64,000 nucleotides of DNA, taken from NCBI RefSeq assembly GCF_001742165.1, contig NZ_CP016442.1:1550001-1614000 (forward strand), read 5' to 3'. This stretch comes from Burkholderia stabilis. Its GTDB lineage: Bacteria; Pseudomonadota; Gammaproteobacteria; Burkholderiales; Burkholderiaceae. A program made the position numbers and the translations under genes. The notes below the pieces were generated by a model. That model worked only from the letters and a program-made list of their open reading frames with translations, did no database searches and was not told the DNA's origin. Each line of letters begins with the position of its first letter. The stretch's first letter is position 1. This document shows, in pieces, positions 10,210 through 57,452 of the stretch.

Positions 10210-10870
10210 GCAGGCACAGCCCCCTTCGGACAGCAAGCTATTAGCTTCAACCGAAAGCGGGGCATGAGTCAAATCGTTATTTTCAAATGGCGGCGCGAAC
10301 CGAAAGGCGGCAGACGCCGCCGGCAGCGGCCCGCGCCAGCCGGTGTGCAGGTGCAGCATCGGCGCATCGATGCGTGCCGTCGGGCGACTGCCTTGGCCAC
10401 GTCGTTCGGCGCATCGCGCCACGCGCCTTGCGATGCGCGGCAGTCGCGTTTCGGGCCGCGCGCATTTCATCGCGCAAACCGTAATGGTACGTAATATAGG
10501 TAACCCAAAAAGCGCCCGGCCGACATCCGTTTCGCAGCGCTTATTGCACCGCAACATTTGTTGTGGGCCGGCAAGATCGATGTCCGCGCGCGTCACATCG
10601 CGCCATTCGTCCGACAAACGACCGGATCGCATCGGTCGATCCGGCCTCGGCCGCATGTTTCAATCGGCGCGCGCCGCCCCTTCCGCGCATGCGTGGCACG
10701 CCGCCCGCCGTTTGGAGCGCCGCGCCTAGCGCCGGGGTTTGGCAAGCGCGCGCGCGGGTCGTATAACAGGCAGAACCGGACCACGATCCAGTGCCACCGC
10801 GCGTGCGTCGCGGACCCACGAGGATTCGAACAACCTGCATGCGGCCGTCCCGGCCCCCAGGAGGGAGACA
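10210..10870. other. Long divergent intergenic region between the GNAT gene and alkB
   Basis: These 661 bases carry no convincing gene. The open frames in it are compositional shadows rich in Arg, Ala and Ser. The part near 10480-10560 is less GC-rich (GTAATGGTACGTAATATAGG) and may hold promoter elements. A possible alkB promoter is TTGGCA (10739-10744) with TATAAC (10760-10765), spacing 15, slightly short. I see no riboswitch or tRNA. Confidence 0.45.
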
Positions 10871-12031
10871 ATGGCAATGAACGACGAATCGGCTTCGAGC
10901 TGGTCGGATGGCAAGCGTTACCTGTGGCTGCTCGGCGCGCTGACGATCACGCTGCCGATCCTCGCCGCCCAGCTCGCGCTGTCGACGGGCCTTCACGTGT
11001 TCTGGTGGTTCGGCCCGCTGTTCGCGTTCGGCGTGATCCCGATCCTCGACACGCTGATCGGCGACGATCGCGACAATCCGCCGGACGCCGTCGTGCCGCA
11101 TCTCGAACGGGAGCGCTATTACCGGTTCATCGTCTACCTCGCGACGCTCGTCGAATACGTCGCGTTCTTCGCGTGCGTATGGATCGTCGGCACGCACGCG
11201 CTCGCGTGGTACGACTATGTCGGCTTCGCGCTGTCGCTCGGCGCGGCCACCGGCATCTCGATCAACACCGCGCACGAACTCGGGCACAAGACGAACCGCT
11301 TCGAGCGCTGGCTCGCGAAGATCACGCTCGCGCCGGTCGCGTACGGTCATTTCTACGTCGAGCACAACCGCGGCCACCACGTGCGCGTCGCGACGGCCGA
11401 CGATCCGGCCAGCGCGCGCTATGGCGAGTCGTTCTGGGCATTCCTGCCGCGCACCGTCATCGGCAGCATCCGCTCGGCGTGGCGGCTCGAGAAAACGCGC
11501 CTCGAACGGCTCGGGCATTCGCCGTGGACCTGGCGCAACGAGGTGCTGCATGCCTGGGCAATGACCGTCGTCGTGTGGGGCATCGCGATCGCGATGGCCG
11601 GCAAGGTCGTGATCCCGTTCCTCGTAATTCAGGCGGTGTACGGCGCGTCGCTGCTCGAAGTCGTGAACTACGTCGAGCACTACGGGCTCGGCCGCCGCAA
11701 GCTGCCCAGCGGCCGCTACGAGCGCTGCACGCCGCAGCATTCATGGAACAGCAATCACGTCGTGACCAACCTGTTCCTGTATCAACTGCAGCGGCACGCC
11801 GACCATCACGCGAACCCGACACGCTCGTACCAGGCACTGCGTCACTTCGACGATTCGCCGCAACTGCCGGCCGGCTACGCGACGATGATCCTGTTCGCGT
11901 ACGTGCCGCCGCTCTGGTATCACGTGATGAACCCGCGCGTCGTCGCGCACTATCACGGCGACATGGCGCAATCGAACATCAAGCCGTCGATCCGCGCCCG
12001 GGTGCTCGCGCAATATCCGGCTGCAGCGTGA
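10871..12031 (+). CDS. alkB: Alkane 1-monooxygenase, membrane di-iron
   Basis: A 386-residue integral-membrane non-heme di-iron hydroxylase that oxidises the terminal methyl of n-alkanes to 1-alkanols, with electrons from rubredoxin. The eight-histidine signature is complete: HELGHK (135-140), EHNRGHH (164-170) and LQRHADHH (306-313), plus the AlkB-specific NYVEHYGL (266-273). Hydrophobic helices alternate as expected (residues 18-60, 88-130, 225-262). The ATG follows AGGAGGGAG. No rubredoxin or rubredoxin reductase gene adjoins it, so electron partners must be encoded elsewhere. The upstream neighbour is divergent and the downstream gene is on the other strand, so it is a single-gene unit. 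Confidence 0.95.
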   Translation: MAMNDESASSWSDGKRYLWLLGALTITLPILAAQLALSTGLHVFWWFGPLFAFGVIPILDTLIGDDRDNPPDAVVPHLERERYYRFIVYLATLVEYVAFFACVWIVGTHALAWYDYVGFALSLGAATGISINTAHELGHKTNRFERWLAKITLAPVAYGHFYVEHNRGHHVRVATADDPASARYGESFWAFLPRTVIGSIRSAWRLEKTRLERLGHSPWTWRNEVLHAWAMTVVVWGIAIAMAGKVVIPFLVIQAVYGASLLEVVNYVEHYGLGRRKLPSGRYERCTPQHSWNSNHVVTNLFLYQLQRHADHHANPTRSYQALRHFDDSPQLPAGYATMILFAYVPPLWYHVMNPRVVAHYHGDMAQSNIKPSIRARVLAQYPAAA

Positions 12032-12033
12032 TC

Positions 12034-12089
12034 GCGGGTAGCGGGTAGCGGGTAGCGGGTAGCGGGTAGCGGGTAGCGGATGGCGGATG
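12034..12089. repeat. Heptanucleotide tandem repeat after alkB
   Basis: Six exact copies of GCGGGTA run from 12034 to 12075, then two variant copies GCGGATG (12076-12089). The array starts three bases after the alkB stop, in the convergent gap before the chemoreceptor gene. Such arrays are prone to slippage; this one does not alter a reading frame. Confidence 0.9.
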
Positions 12090-51968: not shown

Positions 51969-52296
51969 GGGCACTCCTCGCTGACGACGCCGCGTGGCGG
52001 ATGCGGCCTACGCTGAACTGTATGCGGAATCGCGTCGCGGCCGCAATGCCGGTGAAACGGCCACCAGGGCTCGCTCCATGCTGTCGGAAAAACCGCGGAC
52101 GGCAGCGACGTTCACGGTGTGACGGCCGGGTTCAACGGCAGTTGCAGCAATGCCTGCAATGCTGCACGCTGCACGCAGCACGCAGCACGCAGCACGCAGC
52201 TGCGACCACGTGACGGAGATCGGTTCACCACAGGCGCCGTCGCTCGTGCAGGCGGGCGTCGCCCAGCTGTAACTGCACGCCCCCGGCGCGTGATGT
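51969..52296. other. Intergenic region between crcB and the sirtuin gene
   Basis: These 328 bases contain no recognised gene. The notable element is the GCACGCA repeat (52171-52198, listed separately), flanked by TGCAGC/GCTGCA words that could fold. It probably includes the crcB promoter, but I could not place one. Confidence 0.5.
52171..52198. repeat. Heptanucleotide tandem repeat upstream of crcB
   Basis: Four exact copies of GCACGCA lie in tandem, preceded by a related GCTGCACGCT. The array is embedded in a CTGCA-rich stretch from about 52140 to 52205. Confidence 0.85.
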
Positions 52297-53351: not shown

Positions 53352-53732
53352 TCAGCTATCCGAATCGTCTTGCGCGACCGGAATCTCGTCGACCGAGAAG
53401 TAAACCGGCTTGCCGAGGCGCCGCGCAAGGCTGACGTCGGCGTCGGCCCCACGCGACGCGCCGTCGATCCGCCATACCGCATCGCAGCGTCGCAGCAGCC
53501 GGTGCGCGGCCGGATACAGGAACGCCTCGCTGATTTCATCGCCGACCTGCCGCGACCCGGCCGCGACGGAAAGCGGCAACGACACCCATTCACCGATCAT
53601 CGGCACGTGCCCGCGGCGGTACACGTCGAGCGCCGCCGCTTCGAGCCGGTGCAGGTTCGCGGCGATGCGCGCGGAGTCGCCGTCGGTGCCGCTACGATAG
53701 GGGCCGGCGACCAGCACGAGCAGCGGCGTCAT
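53352..53732 (-). CDS. DUF4406-like small nucleoside-deoxyribosyltransferase-fold protein
   Basis: A 126-residue protein beginning MTPLLVLVAGPYRSGTDGD, the VAGPY start of the nucleoside 2-deoxyribosyltransferase/DUF4406 fold. A helix follows (IAANLHRLEAAALDVYRRGH), then VPMIGEW and a later acidic CDAVWRIDG strand. The ATG at 53732 overlaps the nudK stop (ATGA), so translation is coupled. The function is unknown. Pairing with a sugar-nucleotide Nudix hydrolase hints at nucleotide or nucleoside-sugar metabolism. Confidence 0.65.
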   Translation of the reverse strand: MTPLLVLVAGPYRSGTDGDSARIAANLHRLEAAALDVYRRGHVPMIGEWVSLPLSVAAGSRQVGDEISEAFLYPAAHRLLRRCDAVWRIDGASRGADADVSLARRLGKPVYFSVDEIPVAQDDSDS

Positions 53733-54328
53733 GCCGTGCCCGCGCATGCGGTTTCCCGCAGCGCGACGTACTGCAGCAGCATGATCGTCTTCGCATCGAC
53801 GATCTCGCCGCGCTCGATGGCGTCCAGCGCCGCCTGCAGCGGCATCTCGACGACCTCGAGATCCTCGCCCTCCTCCGCGACGCCGCCACCGTCGCCGGTG
53901 CGCAGCGACGCGTCGTATTCGCCGACGAAGAAATGCAGCTTCTCCGTCACCGAGCCCGGGCTCATGAACGCCTCGAACACCTTGCGCACGCCGCGCACGC
54001 GGTAGCCGGTTTCCTCCTCGGCTTCCGCGCGGATGCGCGCCTCGGGCGTCGCATCGTCGAGCAGGCCGGCGGCGGCCTCGAGCAGCATGCCGTCATGCCC
54101 GCTGACGAACGCCGGCATCCGGAACTGCCGCGTCAGCAGCACGTCGCCCGTGCCGGCATTGCGCAGCAGGATGGTCGCGCCATTGCCGCGATCGTAGGTC
54201 TCGCGGCTCAGGCGCTGCCACGTTCCGTCGCGGCGCAGGAAATCGAACGTCACCTTCTTCAGCACATACCAGTCGTCGGACAGCACCGTCGTGTCGACGA
54301 TGCGGACCCGGTCCCGCGTTGCAGCCAT
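53729..54328 (-). CDS. nudK: GDP-mannose pyrophosphatase NudK-type Nudix hydrolase
   Basis: A 199-residue Nudix protein that resembles E. coli NudK along its length: an N-terminal YVLKKVTFDFLRRDG, ETYDRGNGATILL, RQFRMPAF, the Nudix box region AGLLDDATPEARIRAEAEEE and ETGY, and SPGSVTEKLHFFVGEYDASL. NudK hydrolyses GDP-mannose to GMP and mannose-1-phosphate with Mg2+. The Nudix-box Arg is replaced by Ala (Lys in E. coli NudK). The start has GGAGG at ideal spacing. It is divergent from a DeoR regulator across two direct repeats, and overlaps the DUF4406-like gene that follows. Confidence 0.88.
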   Translation of the reverse strand: MAATRDRVRIVDTTVLSDDWYVLKKVTFDFLRRDGTWQRLSRETYDRGNGATILLRNAGTGDVLLTRQFRMPAFVSGHDGMLLEAAAGLLDDATPEARIRAEAEEETGYRVRGVRKVFEAFMSPGSVTEKLHFFVGEYDASLRTGDGGGVAEEGEDLEVVEMPLQAALDAIERGEIVDAKTIMLLQYVALRETACAGTA

Positions 54329-54371
54329 CGCAGCCTCCATTCGACAAAAGACGGTGCTCATGGTAACGTGC

Positions 54372-54403
54372 ATTTTCGTGCAACTTCAAGAATTTTCGTG
54401 CAA
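54372..54403. promoter_or_regulatory. Two direct repeats between nudK and the DeoR regulator
   Basis: ATTTTCGTGCAA occurs at 54372-54383 and again at 54392-54403, exactly 20 bases apart (about two helical turns). The TTTTCGT core resembles DeoR-family operators, which are often direct repeats. The second copy ends five bases before the regulator start. It probably serves both divergent genes. Confidence 0.7.
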
Positions 54404-54408
54404 ACACG

Positions 54409-55164
54409 ATGCTGACGACGCAACGCAAGAAAGCGATCCTCGACGCGCTCGCGCGCGACGGCCAGGTGCTGGCGGTCGAACTGAGCGCGCAATTCGACGT
54501 CTCCGAAGACACGATCCGCCGCGACCTGCGCGAGCTCGCGGCCGAAGGCCTGCTGCAGCGCGTGCACGGCGGTGCGCTGCCGGCGTCGCCGGCCGTCGCG
54601 CCGTTCGCGCAGCGCGAGGCGCTCGAAACGGCCGAGAAGCGGCGCATTGCGCGGCGCGCCGCGCAGATGATCGCGCCCGGGCAAGTCGCGATCGTCGACG
54701 GCGGCACGACGTCGGCGCTGCTCGTCAGCCAGTTGCCGGCCGACCTGCACGCGACGATCGTCACGCACAGCCCGAGCGTCGCGGTCGCGCTGGCTGCGCA
54801 TCCGTCGATCGACGTGATCCTGATCGGCGGGCGGTTGTACAAGCATTCGATCGTCGCGGTCGGCGCCGCGGCGATGGAAGGCATCGCGCGCATTCATGCG
54901 GACCTGTACTTCATGGGCGTCACGGGCGTGCATCCGGTCGCGGGATTGAGCACCGGCGATTTCGAGGAAGCGGCGATCAAGCGCGCGCTGGCCGAACGCG
55001 CGGCCGAGACGGTCGTGCTCGCGTCGCAGTCGAAACTGCGCGCGGCATCGCAGTTCGTGATCGGCGACATCACGCTCGCGCAGACCGTGGTGGTCGAGAA
55101 GGAAACCGAGGCCGCGCTCACGAAGCCGATCGAAGCGGCGGGGGTGACGGTCGTGCGCGCGTAG
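54409..55164 (+). CDS. DeoR-family transcriptional repressor
   Basis: A 251-residue regulator with an N-terminal helix-turn-helix (residues about 3-58: LTTQRKKAILDALARDGQVL, VSEDTIRRDLRELAAEGLLQ, RVHGGALP), the classical DeoR start. The sugar-phosphate isomerase-like effector domain has IVDGGTTSALLVSQLP, VILIGGRLYKHSIVAVGAAA and YFMGVTGVHPVAGLSTGDFE. The ligand is probably a phosphorylated sugar. It may repress nudK and its own gene through the direct repeats directly upstream. No ribosome site is seen: the operator lies where one would be expected. Confidence 0.9.
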   Translation: MLTTQRKKAILDALARDGQVLAVELSAQFDVSEDTIRRDLRELAAEGLLQRVHGGALPASPAVAPFAQREALETAEKRRIARRAAQMIAPGQVAIVDGGTTSALLVSQLPADLHATIVTHSPSVAVALAAHPSIDVILIGGRLYKHSIVAVGAAAMEGIARIHADLYFMGVTGVHPVAGLSTGDFEEAAIKRALAERAAETVVLASQSKLRAASQFVIGDITLAQTVVVEKETEAALTKPIEAAGVTVVRA

Positions 55165-55176
55165 CGACGCGACGGC

Positions 55177-55254
55177 GGGCTTGGGCTTGGGCTTGGGCTT
55201 GGGCTTGGGCTTGGGCTTGGGCTTGGGCTTGGGCTTGGGCTTGGGCTTGGGCTT
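55177..55254. repeat. GGGCTT hexanucleotide array, 13 copies
   Basis: Thirteen exact GGGCTT units in tandem, starting 12 bases after the DeoR-type regulator stop. Runs of three G separated by CTT would allow three-tetrad G-quadruplexes on the plus strand. The unit length allows slippage in multiples of six. Confidence 0.98.
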
Positions 55255-55338
55255 GGTTGCGGTTGCGGTTGCGGTTGCGGTTGCGGTTGCGGTTGCGGTT
55301 GCGGTTGCGGTTGCGGTTGCGGTTGCGGTTGCGGTTGC
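55255..55338. repeat. GGTTGC hexanucleotide array, 14 copies
   Basis: Fourteen exact GGTTGC units directly abut the preceding array, so two different hexamer arrays run back to back over 162 bases. The array ends about 130 bases before the first chromate-transporter gene and lies in its likely promoter region. It is purely intergenic in any plausible gene model. Confidence 0.98.
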
Positions 55339-55466
55339 GCGCCGGATCATACGCATCGAATCGGCTGCGGTTTTTCATCACACCCGCACCGATCCGATGT
55401 CAGCGTGCTGACAGGCACCGCTTGCTAACATGGGCGCCCGCCCAACCGTCTCGCACCGCCCGCCCG

Positions 55467-56078
55467 ATGCCTCCGCCCGCCGCCTCCATCCCGCCCGCGC
55501 CACCTGCGGGCGACGCGCCGCCACCCGGCGTCCTCGCACTGTTCATCGCGTTCTCGCAAATCGGCCTGACCAGCTTCGGCGGCGGCCTGAGCGGACGCAT
55601 GATGCGCGACTTCGTGCACGAGCGGCGCTGGCTCGACGAAGAGGCGTTCCTCAACGGCCTCGCGCTGTCGCAGGCGTTGCCGGGCGTCAACGTGAAGAAC
55701 CTCGCGATCTGGATCGGCTACCGGCTCGCCGGATGGCGCGGCGCGGTGGCCGGCTTCACCGGCATCATCGCGCCGCCGGCCGTGCTGATCGTGCTGTTCG
55801 GCGTCGCGTTCTCGACCCTCACACGCTTTCCGCTCACGCATGTCGCGCTCGCCGGCGCGGCGGCCGCGGCGATCGGGCTGTCGATCTCGATGGCGATCAC
55901 GGCCGTGCGCCGGCTGCCGCGCCGCGCGTTGCCGTTCACGGTGATGGCGCTCACCTTCGTGTCGGTTGCCGTGCTGCACTGGCCGCTCGTGTGGACCGTG
56001 CTGATCGGCGGCACGTTGAGCGTCGCGCTCGAATACCGCCGTGCGGCCGCGGCATCGGCCGGGAGCGACGCGCCATGA
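55467..56078 (+). CDS. chrA: Chromate transporter, first CHR domain protein
   Basis: A 203-residue protein with one CHR domain: FIAFSQIGLTSFGGGLSGRM is the amphipathic start with the FGGG motif, and FLNGLALSQALPGVNVKNLA contains the conserved PG segment. About six hydrophobic segments follow. Long-chain ChrA has two such domains in one protein; this is one half of a two-gene short-chain pair with the overlapping gene after it. It probably exports chromate or a related oxyanion. The role in chromate resistance is inferred from the family only. Confidence 0.85.
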   Translation: MPPPAASIPPAPPAGDAPPPGVLALFIAFSQIGLTSFGGGLSGRMMRDFVHERRWLDEEAFLNGLALSQALPGVNVKNLAIWIGYRLAGWRGAVAGFTGIIAPPAVLIVLFGVAFSTLTRFPLTHVALAGAAAAAIGLSISMAITAVRRLPRRALPFTVMALTFVSVAVLHWPLVWTVLIGGTLSVALEYRRAAAASAGSDAP

Positions 56079-56617
56079 CCGCGTCGCAACGCTACGCCGC
56101 GCTGTTCGGCGTGTTCGCGCCGCTGTCGATCGCGACGATCGGCGGCGGACAGGCGATCATCGCCGACATCCAGCGCCAGGTCGTCGACGTGCATCACTGG
56201 ATGACCGCCACGCAATTCGTGAACGACTTCGCGATCGCGCGGATGGCGCCGGGCCCCGGCTCGCTGCTCGCGACGCTGATCGGCTGGCAGGTGGCCGGCT
56301 TCTGGGGCGCGGTGATCGCGACGCTCGCGCTGTTCGGCCCGACCGCGTTCCTGATCTACGGCGTCGCGCATCTGTGGCGGCGGCATCAGGGTGCGCGCTG
56401 GCAGCTCGCGCTCGAAGCCGGCCTGCGACCGGTCGCGGCCGGCATGATCCTCGCATCGGTGTGGGTGCTGCTGCAGGCGCTCGATGGCGGCTGGGCCGCA
56501 CGCGCGATCGCACTCGTGTCGACGCTGTGCGTGATGACCACGCGCATTCACGCACTGCTGCTGATCGCGGCGGGCGCGCTGCTGCTCGTCGGCATGCACG
56601 CGATCGGCGGCGCATGA
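56075..56617 (+). CDS. chrA: Chromate transporter, second CHR domain protein
   Basis: A 180-residue protein with the second CHR domain: ALFGVFAPLSIATIGGGQAI has the GGG motif, and NDFAIARMAPGPGSLLATLI carries the PGPG segment. Its start overlaps the preceding stop (ATGA). The two proteins most likely form a hetero-oligomeric antiparallel transporter. No chrB regulator is seen nearby. Confidence 0.83.
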   Translation: MTASQRYAALFGVFAPLSIATIGGGQAIIADIQRQVVDVHHWMTATQFVNDFAIARMAPGPGSLLATLIGWQVAGFWGAVIATLALFGPTAFLIYGVAHLWRRHQGARWQLALEAGLRPVAAGMILASVWVLLQALDGGWAARAIALVSTLCVMTTRIHALLLIAAGALLLVGMHAIGGA

Positions 56618-56642
56618 CGCGCGCCGCCGTCACGCCCGGCAC

Positions 56643-57452
56643 CTAGACGCCGCGAAACACCGGCGCGCGCCGCTCCGCAAACGCGCGCAGCCCTTCGTCG
56701 AAATCCGCGCCCTCGCACGCTTGCCGGCGCAGCTCGGCAATTCGCTCGAACGCATCGGCCGGCAACGGCCGCGCGTCCTGCAACACGCGCAACTGCTCCT
56801 TCACGGCCTGCACCGCGAGCGGCGCCTTCGCGGCGATCGTGCGCGCCACGTCGAGCGCGGCATCGTCGACACCGCCCGCTTCCGCCAGCCGATTGACGAG
56901 CCCGTGATGCGCGGCGCGCTCCGCATCGAGCGGCTGCGCGCAGAAGAACATTTCCTTCAGCACGTGGATCGGCAGGTTGTCGTAGAAGCGCAGCAGGCCG
57001 CTCGTCGAATACGGCAGGCCGATGTTCGCGGGCGTCATCGCGAAACGCGCGTCGCGCGCGGCGACGACGAGGTCGCAGCTCATCACGAGGTCGACCGCCC
57101 CGCCCCACGCCGACCCGGCCACCGCCGCGATCACCGCGCCCGGGTAAGTGCGCACGCGCCGCAGCGCCCGTTCGAGCGGCTTGCCGTACGCAAGCGGATC
57201 GCGGTCGTCGGCCAGCTCGCGCAGGTCGTGCCCGGCGCTCCACACGTCGCCGCTGCCGTCGTTCGACAGGATCACGACCGGCGGCGGACGCAGCGCCGCA
57301 AGCGAATCGATGCACTCGACGAGCGCATCGAGCAACGGCGCGTCGAGCGCATGCCGCCGCGCCGGATTCGCGAACCGTACGCGTGCGATCCGCTCGCCGA
57401 TCAGGTCGACCGTCACGGGCGATCGGGTGTCGGGTGTCGTGATGTCGTTCAT
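56643..57452 (-). CDS. Methylmalonyl-CoA decarboxylase-type crotonase (ScpB-like)
   Basis: A 269-residue crotonase-superfamily protein that closely resembles E. coli ScpB (YgfG). It shares SAGHDLRELADDRDPLAYGK, VAGSAWGGAVDLVMSCDLVV, the MTPANIGLPY loop with the ScpB-type Tyr, ILKEM-like VLKEMFFCAQPLDAERAA, and KAPLAVQAVKEQLRVL. ScpB decarboxylates methylmalonyl-CoA to propionyl-CoA. The start overlaps the stop of the CoA-transferase gene (ATGA). It is the third gene of the MFS-CaiB-ScpB unit. An enoyl-CoA hydratase reading is less likely, because the hydratase glutamate pair is not apparent. Confidence 0.82.
   Translation of the reverse strand: MNDITTPDTRSPVTVDLIGERIARVRFANPARRHALDAPLLDALVECIDSLAALRPPPVVILSNDGSGDVWSAGHDLRELADDRDPLAYGKPLERALRRVRTYPGAVIAAVAGSAWGGAVDLVMSCDLVVAARDARFAMTPANIGLPYSTSGLLRFYDNLPIHVLKEMFFCAQPLDAERAAHHGLVNRLAEAGGVDDAALDVARTIAAKAPLAVQAVKEQLRVLQDARPLPADAFERIAELRRQACEGADFDEGLRAFAERRAPVFRGV

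Follow-up and report, generated by a model that had tools for sequence, protein, structure and literature searches.

Organisation of the Locus

The gap between a DeoR/GlpR-type regulator gene (deoR) and a pair of genes for chromate-transporter half-proteins (the first being chrA) is occupied in Burkholderia stabilis by two perfect hexanucleotide arrays, which abut without a gap and comprise 162 bases in whole units (Table 1). The window, that is, the whole stretch of 64,000 nucleotides that was analysed, corresponds to bases 1,550,001–1,614,000 and lies inside a contig of 3,886,092 bases. The genome is that of a Burkholderia (8.53 Mb, in three contigs of 3.89, 3.32 and 1.32 Mb), and the relatives at the locus are Burkholderia as well. 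Tandem Repeats Finder places array 1 at 55177–55256 (period 6, 13.3 copies of GGGCTT) and array 2 at 55255–55339 (period 6, 14.2 copies of GGTTGC), each with 100% matches and no indels. Both the perfect, abutting structure described in the initial annotation and its placement between a DeoR-type regulator and a chromate-transporter pair are confirmed by the sequence, by Tandem Repeats Finder and by the protein domains found on either side.

Table 1. Features of the deoR–chrA region (positions within the window).
Feature	Position	Strand	Remarks
NUDIX hydrolase gene (YffH/AdpP family)	53729–54373	−	Divergent from deoR
Direct-repeat pair TTTCGTGCA	54374–54402	+	Between deoR and the NUDIX gene; likely operator
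DeoR/GlpR-type regulator gene (deoR)	54409–55164	+	PF08220, PF00455
Array 1, GGGCTT	55177–55254	+	13 exact units, 78 bases; AAGCCC on the other strand
Array 2, GGTTGC	55255–55338	+	14 exact units, 84 bases; GCAACC on the other strand
Palindrome TGTCAGCGTGCTGACA	55398–55413	.	−69 from the chrA ATG; probable operator
Conserved box CTTGCTAACATG	55421–55432	+	−46 from the chrA ATG; putative extended −10-like element
Chromate transporter, half-protein 1 (chrA)	55467–56078	+	PF02417
Chromate transporter, half-protein 2	56075–56617	+	PF02417; 4-base overlap with the first

The tract is intergenic. It begins 12 bases past the stop codon of deoR (55164) and ends ahead of the ATG at 55467, which was our choice for the start of chrA. 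On the other side of deoR, a NUDIX hydrolase gene is transcribed divergently. A near-match search for plasmid relatives returned six records, none spanning 80% of the query: one from Paraburkholderia with deoR and the NUDIX gene as neighbours, and five that contain fragments of deoR or stretches without annotation. Since the two genes also occur together in the Paraburkholderia record, the NUDIX gene, rather than chrA, is probably the natural partner of deoR. The direct repeats TTTCGTGCA that separate them form the only exact pair with a gap of 4–20 bases in the whole genome, and are likely the operator of this divergent pair, recognized by DeoR.

Translation of the tract gives (GL)n(VA)n and (AW)n(LR)n in frames of the + strand, and (AT)n(KP)n and (NR)n(QA)n in frames of the − strand. 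The (AW)n(LR)n frame is that of chrA, open from 54291 to 56078 through the tract, and would encode an extended protein of 595 amino acids. This candidate was rejected because the frame reads deoR out of frame, and because two of the arrays in the same gap of other genomes have units of 8 bases. The openness of the chrA frame across both arrays and, out of frame, across deoR is probably due to chance in a G+C-rich genome. The remaining frames were also discarded as a coding repeat; they run antisense to deoR, or start within or beside the repeat.

Perfect Arrays in the Genome and in the Genus

The genome was sampled over 1.664 Mb, comprising 80 evenly placed 20-kb samples and the window, for perfect arrays with a period of 5–12 and a length of at least 20 bp. 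This sample contains 44 such arrays, and in 13 clusters, the locus included, a perfect array extends over 36 bp or more. Single arrays elsewhere reach 186, 137, 121, 118 and 87 bp, in comparison with 80 and 85 bp at the locus. Long arrays often have neighbours: 9 of the 13 clusters contain more than one array. Two other genomes, at 400 kb each, yielded five arrays apiece. By inspection, runs of 13 and 14 hexamers are plainly not a product of chance, and such runs are not rare for this genome.

A compound microsatellite consists of two different simple arrays without a gap between them. The tract shares this gapless joining of unlike arrays, but here they are long hexamer arrays in a bacterial chromosome.

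The closest known counterparts are the VNTR loci used for MLVA in B. pseudomallei and B. mallei (U'Ren et al. 2007, PMC1853098). That report counts 285 arrays on one chromosome of B. pseudomallei and 324 on the other, with units mostly of 6–9 bp; 74.7% and 68.2% of the arrays are intergenic, and 36.3% are duplicated elsewhere, mostly as the motif alone without flanks. Against this description (6–9 bp perfect or near-perfect units, copy numbers of 4–21, a majority in intergenic positions), the tract has two 6-bp units at 100% identity, in 13 and 14 copies, between genes; GGTTGC is duplicated in the genome without its flanks, and GGGCTT is not. The unit size, the intergenic position and the abundance per genome are therefore shared. 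The differences are that B. stabilis belongs to another species group, that two unlike perfect units abut here, and that the published loci have a measured length polymorphism. In the same report, the B. pseudomallei loci that changed did so at 5.3 × 10−5 to 1.7 × 10−4 mutations; by analogy with these arrays of the same kind, the tract is likely hypermutable. A further counterpart is provided by the simple sequence repeats of B. mallei that change on passage, for which the passage study (PMC1574311) reports 49 indels, with 67.3% falling in non-coding DNA.

In the open-licence literature searched, none of the titles and abstract openings listed names the locus. It has the look of an ordinary, rapidly changing repeat, of a sort that is common and already known in Burkholderia. 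As a VNTR, it could provide a strain-typing marker for its species.

Neither unit is special as such. Exact (GGGCTT)4 is present in 12 of 65 Burkholderia genomes, with its backward-read control in 3; exact (GGTTGC)4 is present in 7 of the 65, with the control in 16. GGTTGC is not a favoured unit in the genus, because its backward-read control is the commoner of the two. No second exact (GGGCTT)4 was found in this genome, the copy in the window being the sole one. GGTTGC/GCAACC forms another long array on the second contig, at 2964438–2964574 (L002 1496–1634), where the flanks differ from those of the locus. That GCAACC array has two out-of-register parts and lies within an open frame; the frame entering it ends soon after, and the gene appears to be interrupted in this assembly. 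In the survey of the two units, covering 19 distinct array places (one of them, at a contig start, outside the assessment), a hexamer array of another unit lies within 30 bases in 10 cases, the deoR–chrA locus included.

A perfect repeat of 162 bases is difficult for short reads, and the true array length or unit order might differ from the assembled one. However, this assembly is resolved into the three contigs given above, and comparable abutting arrays are found in other Burkholderia assemblies, which makes an artefact hardly credible.

The Same Gap in Related Genomes

The locus was examined in 49 of the 65 Burkholderia genomes. In 39 of them deoR and chrA lie side by side; the other 10 do not have both genes in the stretch seen, at least one of them on account of a contig end. 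With a threshold of at least 20 bp and at least 2.5 copies, a perfect array is present in 5 of the 39 gaps and absent from 34. The units differ in length: 6 and 6 bases in the window species, 9 and 9 in L010, 8 in L011 (B. lata), arrays of 9 in L017 (Burkholderia sp. D-99) and arrays of 8 in L021 (B. aenigmatica). In all five genomes the first array is G-rich on the deoR strand and begins 4–23 bases past the stop codon. Among the 34 array-free gaps, those of L015, L024 (B. metallica), L025 and L179 were set apart by eye or by length as possible remnants; the gap of L179 is long, with no clear repeat.

A tree of joined genes places the window species with the array-free genomes L012–L014 (support 94/87, slightly below the 95/80 mark of the tool); the remaining four arrays fall, together with three remnants, into a single group of nine genomes (support 98/99). 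On this tree, the array label against all 34 other genomes takes five changes; counting all four remnants as arrays reduces this to four, and leaving out L179 to three. When arrays are compared with remnants alone, 311 of 500 shuffles reach as low a change count. Arrays are present in some species only, and the three genomes closest to the window species (L012–L014) have none, which supports a lineage-specific gain. We read this gain, short of proof, as separate from those that would have produced the other arrays.

The slot is reused, with arrays in four more genomes and possible remnants in a few, and this might exceed what neutral change would produce. Among neighbouring species, this orthologous gap is free of arrays in some, while others have possibly degenerate arrays or arrays built from different units; it thus offers a small natural series for the study of array birth, unit change and decay.

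Origin of the Two Arrays

Both flanks of the tract can be aligned between the window and the genomes L012, L013, L014 and L016. At the position where the array of the window ends in TGCGGTTGCGCGCCGGATC, L014 has TGCGGTTGCGCCGGATC and L013 has TGCGGGTGCGCGCCGGATC; L012 and L016 diverge more. L014 carries one exact copy of GGTTGC, with TGCG recurring six bases apart, and this single copy is a plausible starting point (seed) for slippage. The seed sequence, TGCGGTTGCG, occurs once at the same place in this close relative, and another relative has a variant of it. No GGGCTT seed was found at the left edge of the tract in the aligned relatives.

From this comparison, we infer an origin by slippage. 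Slipped-strand mispairing would have started at the short seed TGCGGTTGCG, a four-base direct repeat with a six-base step, and the seed would have grown into array 2. At the left edge of that array, a second hexamer would have expanded with the same six-base step. The resulting array would have been tolerated because the gap past the deoR stop codon is weakly constrained, with changes in copy number having little effect on chrA.

The initial annotation suggested, as another origin, the conversion of one unit into the other, which the comparison of the units speaks against. In register, GGGCTT and GGTTGC differ at four of six positions, which is the number most often found between unrelated hexamers (0.316 in the null). 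Of the 14 neighbouring pairs with a shared period in the genome sample, the remaining 13 match best in register, with one to three differences. Given the four differences in this pair and the one to three in the rest, two independent expansions are more probable here than a change from unit to unit through point mutations.

Neighbouring arrays of different units in the genome sample share their period in 14 of 15 pairs, compared with 0.22 for random pairs; this count omits two same-unit, out-of-phase pairs, and the 14 pairs come from 9 clusters, six of them from a single one. The pattern does not amount to a law, given this uneven distribution over the clusters and because decaying arrays yield in-register neighbours by construction. 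The two other genomes, at 400 kb each, contain zero and one different-unit neighbouring pair. In the pair of G011 the period is shared and the best match is not in register, with four of eight positions differing.

Altogether, the tract is most likely a lineage-specific compound VNTR in the untranslated gap past deoR, born by slippage and probably near-neutral. Some points count against this account: the seed is exact only in L014, a GGGCTT seed was not found at the left edge, the slot is reused in other genomes, and the folding of the sense RNA described below leaves room for an effect at the RNA level.

Spacing of the Putative chrA Promoter Region

Two conserved elements lie between the tract and chrA. 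The palindrome begins 59 bases past the end of the tract, and the array does not enter it; for TGTCAGCNNGCTGACA, 55398–55413 is the sole exact match in the genome. It is probably an operator. The box resembles an extended −10 element and may be part of the chrA promoter. As a scan for sigma-70 sites over 54200–56800 returned none, this reading of the box is an inference.

The exact palindrome TGTCAGCnnGCTGACA is present in 27 of the 39 genomes with deoR and chrA side by side (at −69 in 23 and at −68 in 4), while 12 lack the exact form. The box, as CTTGCTA(A/C)CATG, is found in 31 of the 39; its position is −46/−45 in 29 of these and −35 in the other 2. In each of the five array genomes, the palindrome is at −69 and the box at −46; among the 34 array-free genomes, the exact palindrome (−69/−68) is present in 22 and the exact box in 26. 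Core-promoter spacing is thus unchanged by the arrays, because neither element is displaced relative to chrA in any of the five genomes that have one. The proposal that the repeats tune chrA through such spacing finds no support in these equal distances, nor in the lack of any array in 34 of the 39 gene pairs. As the tract stops short of the conserved operator and promoter region, on its upstream side, a change in copy number probably has little effect on chrA, and nothing here gives good grounds for expecting a chromate-resistance switch at this locus.

A repeat can also act from a distance. In the report on the TAAA repeat of nadA in Neisseria meningitidis (PMC2791445), expression varies with repeat number through repressor operators that flank the tract, which lies upstream of the core promoter and not within it, as here. 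A contingency element of this type would alter, by copy number, the geometry of the DNA that links the chrA promoter to a distal site or to the end of deoR, and the palindrome downstream of the tract could be one of its partners. The nadA repressor binds operators on either side of its tract, whereas no second exact copy of the palindrome exists in this genome, and the DeoR-type direct repeats TTTCGTGCA stand only before deoR; a search for operators of one repressor on both sides therefore failed for exact copies of both elements. Furthermore, most of the gene pairs have no array at all, and units and lengths vary widely among the five that do. A contingency element is, for these reasons, unlikely, and near-neutrality of the tract remains the preferred reading.

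Folding and G-Quadruplex Potential

As DNA, the tract folds worse than its shuffles (z +2.5, in a model with no quadruplex term). The sense RNA folds better than shuffles (z −3.8); long G·U-rich hairpins are possible, and a mixed hairpin–quadruplex form is only about 1 kcal/mol better (−151.3 against −150.3). GGGCTT and GGTTGC each self-pair fully when G·U is allowed, and the region 54200–56800 has no intrinsic terminator-like site, compared with a mean of 1.7 in shuffles. These properties would suit an element acting at the RNA level, in which hairpins or RNA G-quadruplexes formed on read-through from deoR protect the end of its mRNA or block read-through into chrA. However, full self-pairing is expected in about 15–30% of random hexamers of such compositions, and the sense-RNA z in the other array slots is −2.7 in L010, −5.0 in L011, +3.0 in L017 and +1.6 in L021. 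No fold is kept across species, as the sign of z differs among the slots. An Rfam search of 54300–56700 with E up to 1 gave no match to a described family. An RNA-level element is accordingly rated as distinctly improbable, and a conserved RNA was rejected on the lack of both an Rfam match and a consistent fold.

The G-rich strand raises the related matter of G-quadruplexes. Array 1 contains three canonical G3 motifs (four G-runs of at least three, with loops of 1–7), and array 2 has GG runs only. Two canonical motifs each are present in the gaps of L010 and L021. A three-tetrad form of this strand could, in principle, act on transcription or replication as a regulator or a fragile site. Yet G4Hunter values are moderate (1.35 for array 1 and 0.67 for array 2) and are exceeded by 25-base stretches elsewhere in the window, which reach 2.04; canonical G3 motifs are not rare, with 27 in an 800-kb sample; and the property is not kept among the array genomes, as the gaps of L011 and L017 have no canonical motif. 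Of the quadruplex claim in the initial annotation, the part that stands is that the sequence permits such motifs, while a quadruplex that acts is very improbable. The likeness to eukaryotic telomere repeats noted there is coincidental: the arrays are internal, about 1.605 Mb into the 3.886-Mb contig, and a telomere or replicon end was rejected, as the tract is not at the end of a linear replicon.

Arrays at Gene Ends

Array clusters in this genome may often lie close behind genes. Eight of 14 clusters, including the locus and an array at 12034, lie no more than 51 bases from a predicted stop codon, with a ninth ambiguous, and one or two are equally near a predicted start. The 14 comprise the 13 long clusters and one at 52164, and the genes come from a rough caller based on G+C by codon position, without homology, which is visibly wrong in places, preferring an antisense frame over chrA. 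The proximity to stop codons is only a lead, because it was assessed without a position control and with these caller errors.

A broader and more tentative reading, which we regard as possible but doubtful, is that the gap past deoR is a recurrent birthplace of arrays, and that arrays prefer the 3´ ends of genes as tolerated nurseries, renewing their unit at a kept period. As part of that reading, separate gains in one part of the genus would have given units of 6, 8 and 9 bases. It also suggests that a running array can recruit neighbouring sequence into a new array with the same step length, since the in-register differences between the two units of the tract are too many for one to be a simple mutant of the other.

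Three further arrays were noted. The array at 12034–12079 (GCGGGTA, 6.6 copies) is G-rich, with one canonical G3 motif, and begins two bases past the stop of a predicted + strand gene (10739–12031), as at deoR. At 52164–52200, a GCACGCA array (period 7, 5.3 copies) lies between two predicted − strand genes. The longest array in the sample, a perfect CCGAAACA array of 186 bp (period 8, 23 copies; L253 9937–10122), is within a predicted open frame. As for replication-strand bias, the sign of the skew changes along the contigs and the strands of the arrays looked mixed.
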